Program-made: the position numbers and the translations under genes | The notes under the pieces: generated by a model | Told to the model about the DNA's origin: nothing | Seen by the model: the letters and a program-made list of their open reading frames with translations, nothing else | The model's database searches: none | Shown here: positions 22,331 to 53,357 of the stretch, in pieces | How the letters are laid out: each line of letters opens with the position of its first letter | Numbering within the stretch: the first letter of the stretch is position 1 | From: an uncultured Parvularculaceae bacterium | GTDB taxonomy: Bacteria; Pseudomonadota; Alphaproteobacteria; Caulobacterales; Parvularculaceae | Assembly: GCA_947259375.1 (NCBI GenBank) | Contig: CAMYLZ010000032.1 | Span: 193,501-257,500, forward strand | DNA length: 64,000 nucleotides | Reading direction: 5' to 3'

Positions 22331-22379
22331 TGGCCTGAGCCCCTTGGGTCCTTCACCGGTTAAGTGAGTCTTGCTGCTG
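22331..22379 (+). repeat. Relic of an IS3-family left end
   Basis: 49 bases that match the left end of the complete IS at 33859-33907 in 46 positions and the same orientation, starting TGGCCTGAGCCCC against TGACCTGAGCCCC. No transposase sequence follows it, so it is a decapitated IS end. It marks the left edge of the accessory stretch. Confidence 0.85.
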
Positions 22380-22458: not shown

Positions 22459-23430
22459 CTAAATTAAATACTCCAAAGCGTCTGGCATGAATTGATCCGC
22501 GTGCTCAAAAACGAGAGGCCCTCGATCACTGACTCTTATCATTTCCGGCGCATTACGAATCGTCGCATGTACTGATTTCATCGCTTCGTGGCCCATTATT
22601 TTACAATCACTCGCAATAATCGCTGATTTACCAGTCCACTCTTCACTCAAGAACTGCTTCGCGCGCAGCGTCACCGCAGTTGTCCTATGCTCTGCGGAGA
22701 GCGGGACCAGATTCGGAAATGCTCGAATGCCAGCTTTGTAGCGGCTATCCGGAAATGGCGCGTCATACGCGCGAGCCACGCCCCCCCTAACCACATTGTT
22801 TTCGGCTCTCAAAACAGGGCTAACTGCAGGATCCACCTGCGCGTTATGCATCGAACGCCACACGTGGAACCCCGGCCACGGCTCGTTTCCAGGTGTATGG
22901 ATCAAAGCATTACCAAGCAGAAGTCCAGCAATTCTGTCTTCCATGTCCATCGGTAGTGTAGCCGAGATCCAACCACCCCATCCAAACCCCACCAAACAAA
23001 GCTCGCCGAGGCCCAATTCCTCAATCAACCGAATAATTGACGTACGATGAAATTCAAAACTGTATAGATCCACGCAGGACGGCTTGTCTGACCTACCAAA
23101 CCCAAATAGGTCCGGTATTATTATCCGATACCCATATCCAGCCAAATGCCGAACCGCCTTTCGAAAAGCGAACCCCCAAGTACGCTGACCATGGATGCAC
23201 AGTGCTGTCCGCTTTGCATTAGCGTCTGCAATGTCTACAAAGTGCATCTGCATACCCGAATAACCGGCTAGGCCAGTCACATAGCGGGGTTCATACGGCC
23301 AATCACACACACCCTCAAAGCACTTATCCGGCGTCCTCATTACAGTAGGGCACACCGCCTCGCTCCCTTGACCCAGAATTTCAAAGTTCCGTGTCTCACG
23401 CTCCGACTGCATTTCCCTGCCTGATTCCAT
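22459..23430 (-). CDS. Haloalkane dehalogenase-like alpha/beta hydrolase lacking the nucleophile
   Basis: 323 residues. The N-terminal half follows the haloalkane dehalogenase pattern closely: RTPDKCF, YVTGLAGYSGMQMHFVD, the oxyanion-side HGQRTW and IPDLFGFGRSDKP. The nucleophile elbow, normally CQDWGG, reads GFGWGG, so Gly150 stands where the catalytic Asp belongs (codon GGA). The Trp after it and a C-terminal His (FEHADQF) remain. It is probably not a working dehalogenase; a binding or altered function is possible, or decay. ATG 23430 has GAGGGA six bases upstream; a longer GTG start exists at 23469. It is the last gene of the leftward P460/HemA block. Confidence 0.75.
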   Translation of the reverse strand: MESGREMQSERETRNFEILGQGSEAVCPTVMRTPDKCFEGVCDWPYEPRYVTGLAGYSGMQMHFVDIADANAKRTALCIHGQRTWGFAFRKAVRHLAGYGYRIIIPDLFGFGRSDKPSCVDLYSFEFHRTSIIRLIEELGLGELCLVGFGWGGWISATLPMDMEDRIAGLLLGNALIHTPGNEPWPGFHVWRSMHNAQVDPAVSPVLRAENNVVRGGVARAYDAPFPDSRYKAGIRAFPNLVPLSAEHRTTAVTLRAKQFLSEEWTGKSAIIASDCKIMGHEAMKSVHATIRNAPEMIRVSDRGPLVFEHADQFMPDALEYLI

Positions 23431-23701
23431 CCGCAATCCCTCTAATAACGCCTCTCTCGACACCCGCACATTGTGCCATACCCACCTCGAACGTCACCAT
23501 ACGGACGCCTACAAATACTTGCCTTGAGATCCAAAAACCCATTTGCTTTCACCAAACGAACCAATCAATCGAAAAACCTGCGACTCTAAATCAACGCACC
23601 TCCGCCAATATATTACCATATCCAGGACCAACAAACGTCAACCGCACCCGCCCGTTTGGTATAACGAGGGCACGGAACTCCGATTGGCGCCACACAATTG
23701 G

Positions 23702-24322
23702 TTAGGTGTTTATCTGTCTGCGTGTCATTCGAATCCACGTTTCCGCCACCAGCGCATGAACAATAAACGCAACTGTAAATGACCCTATCGAATACAATGC
23801 TGTAATTTCCGCTGAAGATACTTTATTGATGATAAGTAACGGAATAAATATTAGTCGCATCGTGACGATGGCGGATCCCAAGGCGTAAGCCCGGATCATC
23901 CATTCTCTATGTTCAGCGAAACGCTTAGCTCGCGCATGAACGAAACCGGTAATAACTGATAATAAAAAAAACACTCCAAAAAAACCCATAACCACTTGTT
24001 CCGGAAACCCTGAAAATGGAATTACCAATCCCATAAACAGAGCGGATCCGCCGATAATTACCGCCGCCGAAAGCAGAGCCCTGCCCGCCCATCGGTGATA
24101 ACGCGGCCACCTTTTTCGTATGAATGGAGCAAACTGAAAAACTCCAAACACGAGGTATGCCGCTCCCAATACCACATGCAAATTTACAATTGTCGGAAAC
24201 CGTAAAAATCCCTCATTGTACGGCGGCCTTAAATAGTGAAAAACCGCCGACCCAACCCCAAGTATTGCAAATGCAATGAGCAGAAGACTGAATATTACCA
24301 CCGAGAGCGCCCTAAACAACAT
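23702..24322 (-). CDS. DUF2306-like integral membrane protein
   Basis: 206 residues with about six or seven membrane helices. Features of the DUF2306 family are visible: an early HVVLGAAYLVFGVFQF helix, then RYHRWAGRALL, and a later helix followed by HREWMIRAYAL. Conserved His residues at helix ends could bind haem or metal, but the family function is not established. The RBS AGGGAAAT lies before ATG 24322. It shares direction with the P460 genes. Confidence 0.75.
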   Translation of the reverse strand: MLFRALSVVIFSLLLIAFAILGVGSAVFHYLRPPYNEGFLRFPTIVNLHVVLGAAYLVFGVFQFAPFIRKRWPRYHRWAGRALLSAAVIIGGSALFMGLVIPFSGFPEQVVMGFFGVFFLLSVITGFVHARAKRFAEHREWMIRAYALGSAIVTMRLIFIPLLIINKVSSAEITALYSIGSFTVAFIVHALVAETWIRMTRRQINT

Positions 24323-25262
24323 TTTCCATTTCCCTTCTATAAATTGACGGCGCCATGCCTAATCAATTTTACATCTAGGCTTCGACAACCCGGATCCCTG
24401 CGCAAATTCCGGCGTACTAGTCGTACCCCAACCAAACCATACTTAATAGCTCGATCGAACTTACTCTGCCCCAGAAAATCATATTGGTTAAAAACGGTTC
24501 TTCAGCACAGACGCACGCTATCAACATCTTTCATTGAAACCACAGACGTCCCTACCCCGACTTCTCAACACCCGTGGCAATCACCAGATCGATTACTTGC
24601 AATAAAGGCCAAAACGCATTCCGGGATAGCGATGTTCCTCAGACGAGGGTCACCGAATCGCCGCCAAACTAAGGTCCACCCTGCTAAATTCATCAGCATT
24701 GGAAGCGCACCCCCAAGAGATGCAACATTGAAGACGGATTTAATGTGGAACACCATTAGACCGGCGCCATGCCCCTCAAAGCCCCTCGGCATAGATGGCC
24801 AACATCGGCACACCCGGCCATATTCCCGCAAAAACCAGTGGACATGTCCAGGCGTAAACTGATCAAAGCTGCTATTCCACGACTGGCACGGAGCCACTTA
24901 ATTTCTTCTTTGGCCGTGTCCGGAGGAATGATTAAGAAGCACCACCCAGAGGAAGACCGCAGGACAACTTTTTTTAGGCAACACTTTATCAACCATCAAA
25001 TGAAAGTGAAAATCACCAAAAAGTAATCGCGGCCTCTGAAGGAACAACAATGCCGCCCCTGATTTAGTCACCCTAATGTCACCTGTCCGGTGGGTCCTAG
25101 CGAGCGCCATTCAACGTTTTCAGCAGTTGGTCCGTGTATTCGGCGGCAACTCAGCCGAACAAACCCCGCAACTCATTGGCCCAATTGAATACCATCATAG
25201 CGCTAAAACCACCTACCTTTAGCCGAAAGCATTCATTCGTTGCCGGGTTGGCCTACCCAATA
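24323..25262. other. Gene-poor stretch with an unassigned ORF
   Basis: About 940 bases lie between the DUF2306 gene and the first P460 gene. The longest minus-strand ORF here (24565-24897, 110 codons) contains FTPGHVHWF and a hydrophobic run ending LVWRRFGD, and finishes DCHGC. I do not recognise it. Its neighbours in other frames are broken by stops, so this may be a decayed membrane-protein gene. No RNA gene was seen. Confidence 0.4.
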
Positions 25263-25787
25263 TCAATCACGGTATTCGCTGAATACATAATCAGCACCCT
25301 CTCGCGTCTTATGGCATCCATGGCAAGATGCATTAGGGTCGCTAATCAACCGTACCCGGCTATCTCCTTGAAACGTTTCATATCCCCACCCTCCGGTATC
25401 AAACCACAAACTGGCGTCTTTCTGCATCACGTCCAACCTAATACGATGCCCCTCGACTGTTGCCGTTGCCTGTTCGTCTGTGCTGGTTTCGAGCAAATCG
25501 AAAACCAGCACAGAGCCGTCCGGGTAATCCGTTCCAGCCTTCATCGCCCTCAGAGCGGTCTCGTTTGCGTAGACGTGATGGAGGCCGCCAAAAGTCTCAG
25601 CGAAAGGGTGGTCTGGCAACAATATCATAGACTTGACATGCGTCCAATCCCGATAACCCTCCGGATATTCCACCTCCTGCTCCTTAGACGTCTCAGCCAG
25701 GGATTCACTTGCTGTGAAGCTGATTATTCCCGTACTGATCACTACTGGCACAACAATAAACGCCAAATAGGCATTCGTTATATTCAT
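25263..25787 (-). CDS. Cytochrome P460 family protein (first copy)
   Basis: 174 residues. An N-terminal signal/anchor (YLAFIVVPVVISTGIISF) is followed by a P460-like domain: YRDWTHVKSMIL, HHVYANETAL, FPDG-type YPDGSVLVFDLLE, and a terminal c-type haem site CHGCH (residues 155-159). P460 cytochromes carry a haem crosslinked to a Lys and oxidise hydroxylamine or nitric oxide species; whether this member does so is unknown. GGAGG lies eight bases before the ATG. It is one of three P460 genes in tandem, located in the periplasm by its signal. Confidence 0.85.
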   Translation of the reverse strand: MNITNAYLAFIVVPVVISTGIISFTASESLAETSKEQEVEYPEGYRDWTHVKSMILLPDHPFAETFGGLHHVYANETALRAMKAGTDYPDGSVLVFDLLETSTDEQATATVEGHRIRLDVMQKDASLWFDTGGWGYETFQGDSRVRLISDPNASCHGCHKTREGADYVFSEYRD

Positions 25788-26199
25788 AACAATTTCCTCC
25801 AGATAACCTCATGTCGAGCATCGAGCGAACATCCATCCCACTCCGTACAGGATCTTTTCGCACCACAATTGAGATGATCGCTCCATAAACTTACGTGGAT
25901 CCCATACCTTTGATTGCACGCCAGGGATGATTATGGGAAGGTGCGACGCGGGGCGGTAGTCAGGGGCTATGCGCGCGCGCCCTCCCGCACGGATTCGCCG
26001 ATACACATTCCAACTTCTGCAAGTCGAAAGCGCATCTACCTCATCCGTGAACCGGAATTGAATGTTAAATTGTTGGTTTTCTTTACGTCTCACTTGATCA
26101 TCAGAAGACGTTATAGAGGAATTCCAAATTTTGCCTAACCGCCTCACCATCTCAGAGATGCCTACTCAACGACCGCTTTCAGTTCCACACCAGCCACAA
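25788..26199. other. Intergenic region between P460 genes
   Basis: About 410 bases. A minus-strand ORF (25809-26150) ends just before the P460 gene RBS, but it has no recognisable domain and an atypical composition. I could not identify a gene, RNA or hairpin here. Confidence 0.4.
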
Positions 26200-27174
26200 T
26201 TACTCTGAAGGCAATGATTGAATATACTGTATTATAAGTTTCCTTTGCTTCGCATCCTGCACACCGGCCGGAAACAATGGAACCATTTTATTGTTTGGGA
26301 TGAATCCTTTGATGTCGAGAAGATAAGCATCTAGCGATTCCGGCGTCCAAACCACATCCGCTGACTTCATCGCATCGGAGTACCGGTACCCCTCCAGAGA
26401 ACCCGCCCTCCTGCCAATCAAGCCCGCCAATGAAGGACCAAGCCCTTTGCCGCCTACTTTATCGGAATGGCAAGAAGCACACCTCGAGCTAAAAGCCGCC
26501 TTTGACGCTGCTAAATCGATTTCGGTCGCATCCGTTGACCCGCCCATCGAGGCCGCTTCAGGATCGGAGCCGCGCCCGTCAACTTCGCCAGAGCTCATCG
26601 CCACCTCATAAGCTCCTGCTTTGGAGCCAAGAACAGCTGAATATCCGTACGTATACATCCAATCTCTATTTTTGACAGGAACGTGGCACCCAAGACAATC
26701 GCTTTTGTAGTCCTTAGCGATTTGTTTGGATGGATCGGCAGCGGCAAACAAAGCCCAGCCCCAACCATCACCCCACAATGGATTATTCGGGAACCGACCA
26801 ACAGTGTCTTTAATAGAAACGAACCAGACAGCAGGCTCCGCCGCCCAATGCACGCTACCCGTGGTTAGCTGGCCATTTGTTGAGCCGCGCACCTCTTTAA
26901 TCAGTACGGCGCCGTCTGGAAACACTCCATTCTGACGAAAATGCGCCACAACATCATGTGTAGTGTACACATTGTGAAACCCATTATCGTCGCCATCCTC
27001 GTTAACAACGGCCCAACCGCCGATATGAACCCACTCCGGACTTGTCAAAAAATCAGTTGGCCGGCTGATGTTACCCTGACCATCAACAAAGGGCGAAAAA
27101 TCCGGTCGCTGTGCACTCGCGGCGTTCATTGACAACGTAACGAAGGCGAGTACGAGAGATATTTGATATTTCAC
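26200..27174 (-). CDS. Cytochrome P460-cytochrome c fusion
   Basis: 324 residues from GTG 27174 (TTG 27189 is an alternative): signal peptide ending ASAQ, then a P460 domain (WVHIGGWAVVNEDG, FHNVYTTHDVV, FPDGAVLIKEVR) with haem motif CLGCH at residues 160-164. A class I cytochrome c domain follows, with CASCH at 232-236, GKGLGPSLAGLIGR and a candidate axial Met in NNKMVPLF (about residue 297). The fusion implies electron transfer from the P460 site to a covalently attached c-haem, then to the respiratory chain. It is the middle one of three P460 genes. Confidence 0.88.
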   Translation of the reverse strand: MKYQISLVLAFVTLSMNAASAQRPDFSPFVDGQGNISRPTDFLTSPEWVHIGGWAVVNEDGDDNGFHNVYTTHDVVAHFRQNGVFPDGAVLIKEVRGSTNGQLTTGSVHWAAEPAVWFVSIKDTVGRFPNNPLWGDGWGWALFAAADPSKQIAKDYKSDCLGCHVPVKNRDWMYTYGYSAVLGSKAGAYEVAMSSGEVDGRGSDPEAASMGGSTDATEIDLAASKAAFSSRCASCHSDKVGGKGLGPSLAGLIGRRAGSLEGYRYSDAMKSADVVWTPESLDAYLLDIKGFIPNNKMVPLFPAGVQDAKQRKLIIQYIQSLPSE

Positions 27175-27308
27175 AAACGTACCAATCAATTGAGCGTTTA
27201 ATAGAAATTACTTTCCTGGAACCTCACGGTCTGGGAACAAACTCCACAAAACCGTAGGGCCTTTAATGCCCGGGCAACCCAGTTAGCTCCAAGAAAGTGC
27301 GCGAATGC

Positions 27309-27911
27309 CTACTCCTGCACGGCTCGAACTACGGGATAGAATTGCGTAAACACGAAATCCGTCTCCGCACCAACCTCATGGCATACATTGCAAGCCTCGG
27401 TTGGCGAAGCTTCGGCCGTTTGGTTGTAAGGTTCCGGCTGGTGACCGAACGTAAAGTAAGCCCAGCCTCCAGGCTCGCCACTAAACCGCTTGTTGTCTTT
27501 CACAGTAAGCTCGAGCCCATTAAATTCCCCTTGAAAGTAACCGCGACCACTAACTTCCTGGGAAGACCCGTCCGGCGCATTATTGTTCGGACGAACCGAT
27601 ACCAATTCCTTGGCAATTTGCGTTCCCTCAGCCCACTCGCCAGTCTTTACGAAATGCTTGTAAGCGCTTGGCTCAATATAGACATTGTGAAATTCCGGAA
27701 ATGGCGCTTCACCGCCATTCAGCGCATTCGGCGTCAGTGGGGTTCCAATAAAGATCCACTCGCGCCAATTCTCTGGAATCTCTACAGCACCGGACGATGT
27801 GAATTTGGCCTCGACAATCTCGGCGCTTTCTGCGTTCGCCGCCCCTGAACACGCCGACAAAAGCGAGGCTGCCATGACGCCCGCAATTGAGTAACCGAAG
27901 TATTTTTTCAT
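27309..27911 (-). CDS. Cytochrome P460 family lipoprotein (third copy)
   Basis: 200 residues. A lipobox LSAC ends the signal, predicting a periplasm-facing lipoprotein. The P460-like domain has WREWIFIGTPLTPN, FHNVYIEPSAY, a GEWAEGTQIAKEL segment and the haem motif CNVCH at 174-178. AGGAG lies upstream of the ATG. Compared with the first copy it carries a longer insert before the haem site. Membrane tethering suggests it works close to the inner or outer membrane with the other two P460 proteins. Confidence 0.85.
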   Translation of the reverse strand: MKKYFGYSIAGVMAASLLSACSGAANAESAEIVEAKFTSSGAVEIPENWREWIFIGTPLTPNALNGGEAPFPEFHNVYIEPSAYKHFVKTGEWAEGTQIAKELVSVRPNNNAPDGSSQEVSGRGYFQGEFNGLELTVKDNKRFSGEPGGWAYFTFGHQPEPYNQTAEASPTEACNVCHEVGAETDFVFTQFYPVVRAVQE

Positions 27912-28057
27912 TGCCTAACTGACTCCTGCTCCAACGCAGCCGATCCTCGCTGCCATGGTTAGTGGACCACGACCACACGTCCGGCCGCCAATAAAAGTTG
28001 GGCATAATACACAAAACCAAAAGTAATAGCCTCGACCGCGCTGGCTTCATGCCGCGG

Positions 28058-29338
28058 TTAGTCGGCGAATCCGCCACTTTCCCAGATCGCCTCAGACAAC
28101 GCATCACCGAGGCGCACTATGGCTCTCTCAGTATGAAACGGCGACGGGGTAATTCGAATCCTCTCTCCACCCCGCCGCACAGTTGGGTAGACAATCGGCT
28201 GAGCATAAATATTCCAGTCCCGCATCAATTTGTTCGCAACCGACACACAGCGCTCCGCCCCTTCAATCATCACCGGAATGATGTGCGTAGGCTGATCCAA
28301 AAAACGAATTCCCTTTTCTCGGAGTGTCGACTTTACGAGACACACGTTTTCGCGCTGACGATCGCGCTCATAATCACTCGAAACCAAATGGCGGACACTT
28401 GCCAGCGCCGCCGCAGCCAATACAGGAGAAAGCGCGGTTGAAAAGATAAATCCCGGTGCAAAACTTCGAACGAAGTCTATAATCACCTTCGATCCCGCAA
28501 TATATCCGCCTTGCACGCCAAACGCCTTTCCGAGCGTTCCCTGCAAAACGTCAATGCGTGCACCCTGGCGATTTTTCGCTGCAATACCCGCACCGCTCGA
28601 GCCATAAAGGCCAACTGCGTGCACTTCATCAAGAAACACGAATGCCCCAAACTCTTCAGCGAGGTCGCAAACCTCCCTAACGGGCCCGACATCGCCATCC
28701 ATCGAATACACGCTTTCCAAAGCTATAAGCTTCGAACCATCACGCGGCGCATTTTCCAACAAACTCCGCAGGTGGGAAACATCATTATGTCGCCATATGC
28801 GACAGGTCGCCTTCGACGACCGAATGCCTGCGATCATCGACGCATGGTTTAATTCGTCAGAAAAAATGGTACATTTTGGAAGGTACCGTCCAAGCACACT
28901 GAGCGTGGCCTCATTTGCATTATAACCGGAAGTAAATATCAGCGCCGCTTCTTTTTGATGTAATCCAGCCAGCTCCTTCTCCAGCAAGACCTGGAAAACG
29001 TTCGTCCCTGCTATATTCCGCGTACCCCCCGCACCAACGCCGCACGATTCAAGCGCCGCCTTAGCAGCGGCCAACACTACCGGATGCCTAGACATGCCGA
29101 GATAGTCATTCGAGCACCAGACTGTGAATTCATCTGCCCCGGGCTCGCAAAACCCGTCTGGCCCCAACTCCACGTCCGCACTAAGCGCTGAGTGTCCAAA
29201 ACACTCTGCCAGAGATGGAGCCGACGCCATACGCCGCAACACCGCAAATTTTCGGTATTCCCCACGCTTTTTTAGTCCCGAAAGCAGGGATTCGAGACCA
29301 ATTCCAAAGCCAACCGATGACTCCCCGTTAGAAGACAT
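28058..29338 (-). CDS. hemA: 5-aminolevulinate synthase
   Basis: 426 residues. PLP-dependent alpha-oxoamine synthase that condenses glycine and succinyl-CoA to 5-aminolevulinate, the first step of the C4 haem pathway. Motifs include WCSNDYLGMSRHP, GTRNIAGT, the substrate-binding DEVHAVGLYG and the PLP Lys in TLGKAFGVQGGYIAG, with ITPSPFH near the end, as in HemA. ATG 29338 is preferred to GTG 29356. Alphaproteobacteria usually have a housekeeping hemA elsewhere. This copy, upstream of three c-type haem proteins in the same direction, may boost haem supply for them. A related oxoamine synthase is possible but less likely. Confidence 0.9.
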   Translation of the reverse strand: MSSNGESSVGFGIGLESLLSGLKKRGEYRKFAVLRRMASAPSLAECFGHSALSADVELGPDGFCEPGADEFTVWCSNDYLGMSRHPVVLAAAKAALESCGVGAGGTRNIAGTNVFQVLLEKELAGLHQKEAALIFTSGYNANEATLSVLGRYLPKCTIFSDELNHASMIAGIRSSKATCRIWRHNDVSHLRSLLENAPRDGSKLIALESVYSMDGDVGPVREVCDLAEEFGAFVFLDEVHAVGLYGSSGAGIAAKNRQGARIDVLQGTLGKAFGVQGGYIAGSKVIIDFVRSFAPGFIFSTALSPVLAAAALASVRHLVSSDYERDRQRENVCLVKSTLREKGIRFLDQPTHIIPVMIEGAERCVSVANKLMRDWNIYAQPIVYPTVRRGGERIRITPSPFHTERAIVRLGDALSEAIWESGGFAD

Positions 29339-29411
29339 ACATTTCCATCCGCGCACACAGCCAAATATATGTTATGCTACGCCCAAACTCCCCGCCGAGA
29401 AATTGCTTATG

Positions 29412-29428
29412 GTTATGCCGTTCATAAC
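29412..29428. promoter_or_regulatory. Candidate LysR binding site between hemA and lysR
   Basis: Perfect 6-bp inverted repeat GTTATG-N5-CATAAC, containing a T-N11-A motif as expected for LysR regulators. It sits in the 277-bp divergent gap, 74 bp upstream of the hemA start. Target assignment is inference. Confidence 0.4.
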
Positions 29429-29615
29429 AACGAGCCTATTGCAGGCGGCTGGATTATTTTTTTATTTCCCGGATCCCGCGCCGCCAATACGTCCGTTGGA
29501 ATTGAAATCTTTGTTATTTCAACCTGCAGATTTTCAAACGGCCGACCAGAAAACCCGCCGAACGATAGGTTTCTATGTCCGTCCGGCCAGCTAGTTTTGT
29601 AGATTGGATGATCTC

Positions 29616-30503
29616 ATGGAATTGCACCAGGTCAGGTACTTTCTCGCCACCTGCGAGACACTGAACATTACCAAAGCGGCCGAAGCATGCAATATATCGC
29701 AACCCGCCCTAACTAAAGCGCTTCGGTTGCTCGAAACCGAAATGGGAGGCCCGCTCCTTGATCGACAGTCAAGACCGATGCGACTCACCGAACTCGGCAA
29801 TCATTTGAAGAGCAAATTTCGTCAGTTAAATGATGTCAGCCAGGAAATATCTGCACAAGCTAAACTTTTCAGCAATCTAGAATCCGCGGTTCATACACTT
29901 GGTATACTTAGTACATTGGGCGAGCACCGCTTCCTTCCTATGCTTGAGGGTCTACAGCGTGCGTCATCCGGGATTTCCTTATCTTTGAAGGTTGTGCCGC
30001 AATCGCACCTCGTATCTTATGTTCGTTCTGGAATTCTTGAACTTGTTGTCATCGCCGACACACTTTCCTGTACGGATGGCCTGGAAGTGGTGCCGTTGTT
30101 TGAGGAAGAGTATTTTCTTGGCATGCCGCCCGACCATCCGTTGACAAAAATAAACAGAATAGAGCTATCAGATTTGGAAGGCGTAGACTTTGTTCGGCGA
30201 ATTCATTGTGAGCTAAACGACTACATGGACTCCCTTTTCACCCAGCACGCCATATCGGTAAAAAACCGACTAGCGACAGACCAAGATGCTATTGCTCGAA
30301 AAATGGTTCATGCCGGATTGGGGTTATCGATAATGCCGGAATCTGTCTGCCACGGGCTATCGGATTTCCGTCCTATATCCGACACAAAATTACGGAGAAA
30401 AATTGTATTGACGAGTATGGCCGGTCGCAAACTTTCACCCTCCGCCAAACGCATTAAGGAAGTTATTCTTTCACGCTGGCAAGAGACCCGATTCGCAACA
30501 TAG
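29616..30503 (+). CDS. LysR family transcriptional regulator
   Basis: 295 residues starting MELHQVRYFLATCETLNITK, the classic LysR start; the TTG at 29604 is less likely. The winged helix-turn-helix covers the first ~60 residues (KAAEACNISQPALTKALRLLE), followed by a periplasmic-binding-like effector domain. It is divergent from hemA, the arrangement in which LysR proteins often control their neighbour. The effector is unknown. Confidence 0.9.
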   Translation: MELHQVRYFLATCETLNITKAAEACNISQPALTKALRLLETEMGGPLLDRQSRPMRLTELGNHLKSKFRQLNDVSQEISAQAKLFSNLESAVHTLGILSTLGEHRFLPMLEGLQRASSGISLSLKVVPQSHLVSYVRSGILELVVIADTLSCTDGLEVVPLFEEEYFLGMPPDHPLTKINRIELSDLEGVDFVRRIHCELNDYMDSLFTQHAISVKNRLATDQDAIARKMVHAGLGLSIMPESVCHGLSDFRPISDTKLRRKIVLTSMAGRKLSPSAKRIKEVILSRWQETRFAT

Positions 30504-30852
30504 GAGAAGTCCGACTGATATCCCAAATACTCAAAGCACTATTACTGCGCCTCTTCTTAACAATGGAAACGCATGTCACTGTTATGGCTGAGAGAAAATT
30601 CATCTTAGATACATGACGATTACTTCCCTCATTTTTCCGTTTAAATTACTATTATTGCAACAGTCAAAAATCCTGCCAGCATTGCGGCTTCCTTCTACCA
30701 GATACAACCCTGCCAATTACAGATCGAGTGCTGGATCCTGTTATTCATCAAAAATGGTCTCCCCAAAAGAATTCAAACAATCGCTTCGCTGGGTGATTTG
30801 TGCATCTGTTTAATTGTACTTTTTTAAAGGCTACGAGAAAGGAAACCAAATC
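30504..30852. other. Intergenic region after lysR
   Basis: About 350 AT-rich bases with no gene or RNA recognised. A good RBS (AAAGGA) for the next ORF lies at its right end. Confidence 0.5.
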
Positions 30853-31506
30853 ATGACAATCGACTTCGCGACATTCCAAGTAGCTGCGCTCGCGCTCCTG
30901 AGTGCACAAAACGGCTTCGAACAGGAAATTGACGCTACCGACTATTCTGGCAGACCGCCATGTCCTGTAGTAGAAATCACTTCACCTGAGCCGATTAGCG
31001 GGCTCACTTTTGTTTCTGTACCGAGCGCATCTCAGCCGGAGTCAACTTCTGATTTTCTGATCGGCGCGCATGGAGATGCGGGCCTTTCTGTTTTTAGCCT
31101 GAAAAACCGGCATGTCCGAAAACACGCTATTCATGCGGATGTCGTGTCGTCTTACGGGATCAATCTATTGGCGTTTCGAAATACTGCCGATGGGTCGGAA
31201 TTGCAGCGGATGACGGTCAATCAATCTGGCGGACTGCAGACGCTCAACGTCACTAGCCCCGCCGATGTTTCTGCCACGACTCTTATTCGCAATGCCTATG
31301 CCTTACTGGGCCCCGTTCGAATGACGGACACCGGTATAAAAACAGAGTTCGGATTTTTCTCCTTCCCTGAGCGGCCAACTGCGGTTGCCGCCACGACTTT
31401 ACAGATCCACGAGATGCATTCCGCCGGCGCAATCGCTGTGGGCTTTGAAAATCGAAGAATATCGATTTTTCCAATGGAGTTCCTAGATGGCGAATGCAGG
31501 GCGTGA
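30853..31506 (+). CDS. Unknown protein, possibly part of a beta-propeller
   Basis: 217 residues from ATG 30853, which has AAAGGA about ten bases upstream; a longer start at 30814 lacks an RBS. Repeating beta-like segments (DFLIGAHGDAGLSVFSLKN, YGINLLAFRNTADGSELQRMTV) loosely resemble the blades of phytase-type propellers, but the protein is too short for a full propeller. A weak hydrophobic N-terminus (FQVAALALLSA) might be a signal. I do not recognise it with confidence. It is followed by transposase debris, so it could be truncated. Confidence 0.5.
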   Translation: MTIDFATFQVAALALLSAQNGFEQEIDATDYSGRPPCPVVEITSPEPISGLTFVSVPSASQPESTSDFLIGAHGDAGLSVFSLKNRHVRKHAIHADVVSSYGINLLAFRNTADGSELQRMTVNQSGGLQTLNVTSPADVSATTLIRNAYALLGPVRMTDTGIKTEFGFFSFPERPTAVAATTLQIHEMHSAGAIAVGFENRRISIFPMEFLDGECRA

Positions 31507-33858: not shown

Positions 33859-33887
33859 TGACCTGAGCCCCTTGGGTCCTTCACCGG

Positions 33888-34738
33888 TTAGGTGAGTCCT
33901 GCTGCTGAATAACTCATTGATTTCGGTTTGGCGAGCGCGTCGGGCGCGGAGCTTATCTGTAGCTCAAGCGCCCGGCGCGCGGTCGCCGGTGATTGTCCGT
34001 TCAGAGCCGAATGAGGCCTGATATTATTGTAATCATATCTCCAGATCGACAGCCGACGCCGGGCGTCAGCGAGGCTTGCGAAGACGGTCTCGTTGAGGAG
34101 TTCATCGCACAAGCGACCATTGAACGACTCGATGAAAGCGTTCTGGGTTGGCTTGCCGGGCGCGATGTAATGCCAGTTAACGCCGTTTCGGTTCTGCCAG
34201 TCGAGGATGGCGCGCGAAGTAAATTCTGTTCCATTGTCGCTGACAATGGTTTGCGGTTGGCCATAGAGCCTGATCAGCTTGTCGAGTTCGCGAGCGACGC
34301 GCGCGCCGGAGAGCGATGTGTCAGCGACCAAACCGAGGCATTCGCGGGTGCAGTCGTCGATCACGCCGAGGATGCGGAAGCGCCGCCCTGGCTCGAAGAC
34401 ATCCGACAGAAAGTCGAGCGACCAGCGTTCATTGGGCTTTGCGGGCGTGCCGATCGGCGCCCTGACGCCGGTCGCGCGTTTGCGGCCGCGCGCCGTCGCT
34501 TTACCGACAGGCCTTCTTCTGCGTACAGCCTGCGAAGCTTCTTGTGGTTCATGCGTGTTCCTTCGCGTTCAAGCATGAGGCCAATGCGGCGATAACCGAA
34601 GCGCCGCCGCTCTGACGCAATCTCCCGCATCCGCTGTCTGATCTCGGGACAGTCGGGGATGCGCTCGCGGCGCACCGTCTTCGGATCGACGCTGACCAGC
34701 CGACAGGCGCGTCTTTGGGAGATGTCGTGTCGTTCCAT
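33888..34738 (-). pseudogene. IS transposase OrfB, frameshifted
   Basis: The first part reads MERHDISQRRACRLVSVDPK and carries the HTH_21 helix region up to GLSVKRR. Then a GC repeat near 34485-34495 appears to hold two extra bases and throws the frame. The correct frame resumes as GRKRATGV ... [12 protein letters not shown] and CVIDD-type [12 protein letters not shown], through the DDE core ([25 protein letters not shown]) to the end. The catalytic core is intact but unreachable without frameshifting, so this copy is probably inactive unless supplied in trans. Confidence 0.8.
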
Positions 34739-35295: not shown

Positions 35296-35471
35296 GTCTT
35301 CATGATGGCCATATCCGCGCTCTTGGTAAAGATAATCGGCGGGTATCGCTAACACTCAACCCGCCCTACCGGCCGAAGGCCGATACTGGACCATCCTCGC
35401 CGCGCAACCACAACGGAAAGCGCGTTTCCGATTGATTTCGCTACTTCAGTCAGTGTCAATGTTGCTTGAAG

Positions 35472-35516
35472 TGGCGCGAGTGACGGGACTCGAACCCGCG
35501 ACCTCCGGCGTGACAG
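35472..35516 (-). repeat. Left attachment-site copy: 3' half of tRNA-Asp
   Basis: 45 bases identical to the tRNA-Asp gene from its CCA end to the anticodon loop (53281-53325), same orientation. The anticodon-stem 5' half, D-arm and 5' acceptor strand are absent, so it is not a tRNA gene. Such a partial copy is the usual footprint of integration into a tRNA 3' end. Confidence 0.92.
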
Positions 35517-52918: not shown

Positions 52919-53280
52919 CCGAAGCTGAAGATATCACCAAGAACAATAAACGACATACGCCGCTACTCGGTCACAGCGCTTAACGCCAGCATTCTCCATA
53001 TCGAAGAAATAGAAAGATTCAATACGGCGACAGGCGTGCTTTCCGTTTATCACACAGGTCCCAATCGATGACGACGGTTCGGTTCCTCGTTCAATCAACA
53101 GCGATTTCTGACCGAAGTAGAATCAAACCTGCCCAAGGGAACTTCCAAGGCGAACAAAACGAAAAAATTGTCCCCAGGATATGGCCGCAAAGTTTGGTAC
53201 CCCGGTGGTACCCCGAGCAAAAAAACGCTTTCCTGAAAGAAATACGATTTCCACTAAGCACCTGATTTATTTTCGAGAAA
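52919..53280. other. Gene-free right end of the island
   Basis: About 360 bases between the copper ATPase and tRNA-Asp. A near-palindromic GGTACCCC stretch lies near 53196-53214. No integrase or other gene was recognised, although this is where one would be expected for an element in this tRNA. Confidence 0.55.

Positions 53281-53357
<77 letters not shown>

Follow-up and report, generated by a model that had tools for sequence, protein, structure and literature searches.

Cytochrome P460, cytochrome c'-beta, 5-aminolevulinate synthase (ALAS, hemA-type) and the Ccm system of cytochrome c maturation (system I) are each already known. The main text of a 2025 review of the P460 superfamily calls the physiological roles of cytochromes c' undetermined, finds the co-occurrence of P460 and c'-beta in some organisms intriguing, and does not contain the terms "operon", "gene cluster" or "aminolevulin" (PMC11928373). 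Here we describe a cluster in which genes for P460-fold cytochromes lie beside an ALAS gene and a divergent LysR gene, in a 64,000-nucleotide stretch of DNA (the window) from an uncultured Parvularculaceae bacterium (assembly GCA_947259375.1, contig CAMYLZ010000032.1, positions 193,501 to 257,500). With slightly better than even confidence, we read it as a periplasmic module under LysR control that defends against nitrogen oxides and supplies its own haem. A preliminary description of this DNA, made from the sequence alone, knew of no account of such a combination; we likewise found none, nor any of its repeated assembly or of its palindrome, in partial listings of the open-access literature, which did not cover subscription papers.

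The gene set of the preliminary description was confirmed. The genes for ALAS, P460a, P460b, P460c, a DUF2306 protein and a dehalogenase-fold protein follow one another on the minus strand, the hemA-type gene lying upstream of the P460 genes and in the same direction, as described, and the LysR gene diverging from it on the plus strand. Family searches of the window covered 10 proteins between 21.7 and 33.6 kb. The core features are:

28058–29356, minus strand: second ALAS (TIGR01821, 513.6 bits; cut-off 338.55)
27309–27911, minus strand: P460a, cytochrome P460 with Phe71, Lys101 and Glu134 (PF16694, 95.9 bits; cut-off 27)
26200–27189, minus strand: P460b, P460 domain (Lys98, Phe123) with a C-terminal cytochrome c (PF16694, 82 bits; PF00034, 34.2 bits)
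25263–25787, minus strand: P460c, cytochrome c'-beta with Phe66, Phe96 and Asp119 (PF16694, 104.7 bits; best Protein Data Bank (PDB) match 6hih, E 4.8e-41)
29604–30503, plus strand: divergent LysR regulator (PF00126 and PF03466)
29412–29428, no strand: probable LysR operator GTTAT-N7-ATAAC (in 15 of 40 LysR gaps of other loci)

P460a belongs to the P460 fold family, with a C-terminal CxxCH motif and a lipobox, LSAC, read from the sequence. Its best PDB match was 8gar (E 9.1e-49), followed by N. europaea P460 (2je2, E 5.6e-48). Lys101, Glu134 and Phe71 correspond to Lys70, Glu96 and Phe41 of the N. europaea enzyme, residues that the main text of the review deems important for hydroxylamine oxidation (PMC11928373). 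The crosslinking Lys was invariant in all 16 aligned proteins, one of them of the P460b type, and the Phe/Lys/Glu triad was kept in 85 of 86 P460a BLAST hits across 80 loci (residue counts at these loci are of hits, not of loci). These residues support the prediction that P460a is active and fit for hydroxylamine oxidation, with a haem that would be crosslinked to Lys101. P460a is of the same family as N. europaea P460 (2je2, 2je3) and has its CxxCH motif, crosslink Lys, distal Glu and capping Phe; its neighbors are ALAS, LysR and a P460 fused to cytochrome c, not those of a known nitrifier setting.

The preliminary description counted three P460-like proteins, one of them fused to cytochrome c. 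All three do match PF16694, and the fusion was found in P460b, but the third protein is a cytochrome c'-beta. Similarly, the crosslinking Lys expected of the P460 domains is present in P460a and P460b but not in P460c, where Phe96 stands in its place; a trio of three alike P460 enzymes was therefore ruled out. P460b, which starts with TTG, has a Lys98 that was invariant in 13 of 13 aligned proteins, and the combination of this Lys with Phe at the carboxylate site (Phe123) recurred in 51 of 52 P460b hits at the 80 loci. P460b resembles NsP460 (6amg), which is crosslinked and cannot oxidize hydroxylamine, in having the Lys but no carboxylate; it differs from NsP460 in having Phe rather than Ala at that site and in its fused cytochrome c. 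Phe66 and Phe96 of P460c correspond to Phe32 and Phe61, the pocket residues of M. capsulatus cytochrome c'-beta (6hih), which P460c also resembles in lacking the crosslink Lys. It departs from this hydrophobic-pocket protein at Asp119, which occupies the position of Gly82. A fourth protein of the P460-cytochrome c kind is encoded elsewhere in the same genome (G000:C22:117511-117891, L049), near open reading frames (ORFs) of RND-efflux size and with no ALAS in the 20 kb read.

The window ALAS passes the equivalog-domain model TIGR01821, with which only the window's own genome was scored. Compared with structure 2bwn it keeps the pyridoxal phosphate Lys and other pocket residues, whose roles and numbering we take as generally assigned; the N-terminal Arg fell outside the aligned region. 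By these measures it is a genuine member of the ALAS family. The preliminary description proposed a check for another hemA in the genome, and one is present on a separate contig (C12:94085-95314), scoring 637 bits, above the window copy; this gene is taken as the housekeeping hemA, and the window ALAS was ruled out as the only one. The window protein shares its family and intact pocket with solved ALAS (2bwn, 7x98) and with duplicated alphaproteobacterial hemA. It differs from them in belonging to a P460-linked clade of its own, with a palindrome and LysR upstream, and in being extra to a higher-scoring hemA.

Linkage between ALAS and P460 recurs among relatives. P460 was present in 15 of 100 relative genomes, grouped into 18 loci (a hand tally, as were the genomes with at least two ALAS matches), and an ALAS lay within 8 kb at 10 of these 18 loci against 0.16 expected, which bears out a neighborhood conserved in relatives. 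Within the Parvularculaceae, 12 of the 62 genomes examined had P460, nine of them with ALAS within 8 kb. At least two ALAS matches were found in 9/15 P460-bearing genomes vs 18/85 others, and another ALAS lay outside the cluster in eight of nine linked genomes; in the remaining one (G016) both copies flank the P460 gene. A second sample comprised 80 named loci, the best of 460 relatives found and those nearest to P460a. ALAS was seen at 16 of them, where a density of two ALAS per 3.5 Mb would predict 0.79, P460b at 49, LysR within 2.5 kb at 53, a globin-like gene at nine and CcmF at four. One of 17 ALAS hits, an oxoamine synthase match in L091 (36%), was excluded from the count. The two samples overlap, as five of the 16 ALAS-bearing named loci (L068, L071, L133, L134 and L144) are records of the same contigs as four relatives (G035, G021, G005, G009 and again G021). 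Of 11 genomes behind the named loci, 10 had at least two ALAS matches and that of L086 had one.

Linked ALAS outside the window were assigned by similarity to the window ALAS (46–64% identity) and by tree position. The ALAS tree had 87 rows, 23 of them P460-linked, after removal of identical rows, a partial copy of the window ALAS and three hits that were short or weak; the ALAS of G456 was labeled unlinked and both of G016 linked. It needed seven label changes, six of them forced by well-supported branches, where shuffled labels averaged 20.5; this count alone cannot separate gains of the linkage from losses. A constraint keeping all P460-linked rows together was rejected (p-AU 3.4e-57), which with the seven changes rules out a single origin. 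ALAS therefore seems to have joined P460 clusters repeatedly, several separate times. The window copy fell in a six-member clade, all P460-linked, with support of 100/100; the tree program flags long branches, so where exactly this copy belongs is less certain than that a single clade is rejected. Within this clade ccm genes accompany four members (G035, G021, L074, L086), and not the window or L066.

The clusters of relatives take several forms. In G035 and one cluster of G021, LysR diverges from a row of ALAS-CcmF-CcmH-CcmA-CcmB-CcmC-CcmI-like-P460, with CcmE on the other side (CcmA and CcmC being named by position and general domains). ALAS is likewise accompanied by P460 and a set of ccm genes in L074, L086 and a Sinorhizobium mexicanum plasmid, where hemA, ccm genes, P460, msrA and LysR stand together. 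Sister clusters hold genes of Ccm system I (CcmF, CcmH, CcmB, CcmA-, CcmC- and CcmI-like genes, CcmE nearby), which is missing from the window cluster; a single CcmF was found in the window's genome, on another contig, and G021 has a second CcmF elsewhere. The order globin-ALAS-P460 was seen in the other G021 cluster, G045, G005 and G009, and G016 has at the globin position an ORF that resembles a globin only by size. The G011 order is ALAS-SnoaL-like-P460a-c'-beta-P460b-DUF2306, and that of G002 is P460a-P460b-ALAS, adjoining AraC-type regulators. Ruegeria strains (L080, L085, L088) have the arrangement LysR-P460a-P460b-ALAS.

The LysR protein of the window, whose gene is divergent from ALAS as first described, is 59% identical to the LysR adjoining ALAS in G035. 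The 247-bp gap between the two genes holds the palindrome GTTATG-N5-CATAAC of the preliminary description, at 29412–29428 and nowhere else in the window; the core common to relatives is the shorter GTTAT-N7-ATAAC. This core was found in 15 of 40 gaps (the window gap being additional) that separate P460a or ALAS from a divergent LysR, the next best of 9,216 dyads being found in four. Three of these gaps lie before ALAS and 12 before P460a; one and the same site thus stands ahead of ALAS in one lineage and ahead of P460a in other lineages. Exact sites numbered 16 over 1.38 Mb of loci, and 15 of these were near a LysR start. Binding of GTTAT-N7-ATAAC by LysR is therefore probable, as judged from its position and recurrence.

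Gaps of 146 bp (ALAS-P460a) and 119 bp (P460a-P460b), against 412 bp (P460b-P460c) and 940 bp (P460c-DUF2306), make co-transcription plausible for the first three genes. Scans for sigma-70 promoters and terminators gave no signal above shuffled sequence, and translated window gaps had zero matches at E 0.01 to ORFs of related loci. The remaining features around the cluster are:

23702–24322, minus strand: DUF2306 membrane protein (PF10067, 93.7 bits; 76% to the G011 cluster protein)
22459–23469, minus strand: haloalkane-dehalogenase-fold protein (PRK00870, 213 bits, below the cut-off of 265)
30814–31506, plus strand: protein of unassigned family (homologues 25–32% identical in four relatives; model pLDDT 76)
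22331–22379, plus strand: 49-nt direct repeat at the left edge of a stretch low in guanine and cytosine (GC), 94% identical to 33859–33907
33859–33907, plus strand: 49-nt direct repeat at the right edge, beside an IS3-type integrase-core ORF at 33888–34364

The DUF2306 gene lies downstream, where the preliminary description had placed it; among the loci examined, it stands beside P460 in one relative only (G011). The dehalogenase-fold protein had been described as lacking its nucleophile. It does have Gly at the Asp nucleophile site, but more than the nucleophile is gone: the catalytic His is also missing in all six aligned proteins (the window and five relatives), whose nucleophile position is occupied by Asp, Glu or Gly. 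On the roles presumed for this Asp and His, the window protein, relatives of which occur in several P460 clusters, does not qualify as a haloalkane dehalogenase. Relatives of the 30814–31506 protein lie near CcmE in G035 (adjoining) and G021, and one is fused to a CcmE domain (L086:1351-2508), which suggests that this family belongs to haem attachment. A Foldseek search with its model gave weak propeller-type matches only (TM about 0.3).

The 49-nt repeats bracket 11.5 kb of low-GC DNA that includes the cluster (0.504, vs 0.576 in the DNA to the left), and on these grounds the stretch looks like acquired DNA. The sole full-length match in the genome to the element at the right repeat, assigned to the IS3 type from its sequence, was itself. 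A second 49-nt repeat pair lies further along the window (35468–35516 and 53277–53325, 98% identical), its right copy overlapping a tRNA-Asp gene (53281–53357), an arrangement that resembles the ends of an integrated element of ~17.8 kb. This putative element holds metal-efflux-like and MerR-like ORFs, named from the ORF list.

The residues and partner genes fit the handling of hydroxylamine or nitric oxide (NO), and the nearby globin-like genes of relatives fit NO. In the defence module that we favor, an inducer would act on LysR, which would bind GTTAT-N7-ATAAC and switch on ALAS and the P460 genes. ALAS would raise 5-aminolevulinate, and hence haem for several exported c-type cytochromes. 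P460a, with its Lys-crosslinked haem and distal Glu, would oxidize hydroxylamine to nitrous oxide (N2O) or NO, electrons would move to the cytochrome c part of P460b and from there to the respiratory chain, and P460c would trap NO. For the LysR-controlled, haem-supplying oxidation module of the preliminary description, the link of LysR to a dedicated haem-precursor enzyme is supported by the recurrence of neighborhood and operator and by repeated ALAS recruitment, and the P460a residues suit hydroxylamine oxidation; the idea of three alike members is given up.

Several observations weigh against this defence. P460b lacks the distal carboxylate that hydroxylamine-oxidizing P460 needs, and Asp replaces Glu at this site in two ALAS-linked P460a (G002 and the Sinorhizobium plasmid); according to the main text of the review, N. 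europaea P460 lost its activity on a Glu-to-Asp change, whereas the M. capsulatus enzyme is functional with Asp (PMC11928373). The 412- and 940-bp gaps argue against a single transcript for the whole set. The exact palindrome is missing from 25 of the 40 gaps and from G035 with its 59% identical LysR; some of the 15 sites belong to closely related loci, and they should not be counted as independent occurrences. No ALAS was visible at 64 of the 80 named loci, of which 45 have 9 kb on both sides, contig ends cutting many. Class-wide, the linkage is rare, being seen in one of 51 P460-bearing genomes, so that it is ruled out as a rule of the class, and that one case involves the only ALAS found in its genome, on the opposite strand. 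This survey took 51 of 90 P460-bearing genomes, those with a best E of at most 1.4e-15, leaving out 38 weaker ones and the genome of the window itself, and judged linkage from contig coordinates; three of the 51 had no ALAS match. No internal source of NO was found, since none of 12 genomes, the window's and those of 11 relatives, had a Cu nitrite reductase above the cut-off (the search did not extend to cd1 nitrite reductase or NO reductases), and denitrification as the setting is unsupported. Finally, the presence of Msr and similar genes next to some relatives suggests oxidative stress in a broader sense.

A general oxidative or chlorine stress module, in which P460 would be peroxidase-like or consume oxidants and the extra ALAS would replace oxidant-destroyed haem, is on balance unlikely. 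Plasmid P460 genes of Pseudomonas, Aquincola, Rhizobium and Sinorhizobium, the last set itself ALAS-linked, do occur with various MsrA/MsrB, DUF417, YeeE, GST, OsmC, peroxiredoxin and ergothioneine genes (Msr in L040, L042 and L043; DUF417 in L040, L041 and L045), but these five P460s (L040, L041, L042, L043, L045) may work differently, as their carboxylate site is Asp in four and Ala in L045. MsrA is also near P460a in L086, L143 and L144, and OsmC in G021; MsrA is nevertheless found in just three of the 80 closest loci, and no Msr, DUF417 or peroxiredoxin was among the 10 window proteins searched. The main text of the review reports peroxidase-like activity for c'-beta with a polar pocket (PMC11928373), which would suit Asp119 of P460c, whereas the near-complete retention of the hydroxylamine-oxidase triad among P460a hits speaks against this rival. 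We hold it still less probable that the locus is a respiratory side branch, oxidizing hydroxylamine or a similar compound for electrons and not for detoxification. The cytochrome c of P460b would serve this end, and P460a, LysR and the exact palindrome lie near cbb3 oxidase (FixO), Crp/FNR-type and hemN-like genes in L104, L114, L117, L118 and L120 (one representative of each gene tested with Pfam, the hemN C-terminal domain falling below cut-off). Only these five of the 80 loci were seen to have this setting, however, and no ammonia- or hydroxylamine-generating enzyme was found among the 10 window proteins searched, no genome-wide search having been made.

ALAS-like enzymes have elsewhere been recruited for non-haem products, and the window ALAS might similarly serve a five-carbon metabolite or use a changed substrate, its adjacency to P460 being secondary. 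Its intact pocket, its haem-protein neighbors and the haem c attachment genes in four of six clade members make this a very doubtful proposal. Chance hitchhiking in an island is disfavored and the least credible explanation of all: the low GC and bracketing repeats suggest acquired DNA, in which whole clusters may move together, but linkage in several separate ALAS lineages, far above chance, and the shared palindrome speak against accident. A further possibility, which we raise only tentatively, is a repeatedly evolved, self-sufficient and LysR-switched production line for haem enzymes, in which one regulator would turn on haem precursor synthesis, P460-fold cytochromes and, where sister clusters include it, the attachment of haem to protein. 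Pyridoxal phosphate enzymes, the housekeeping ALAS among them, are attacked by hydroxylamine. A spare ALAS would then be needed because hydroxylamine or NO stress would hit the housekeeping ALAS, the module's own substrate poisoning haem synthesis and starving the defence of haem.

The cluster provides P460 and c'-beta proteins with a genetic setting in which the regulator is defined and both an operator and an active enzyme are predicted, and relatives of it occur in named Ruegeria strains. It suggests that haem supply may be under selection as a component of a stress module that can be switched on and off. If P460a makes N2O, such clusters would be a possible source of this gas outside nitrifiers.

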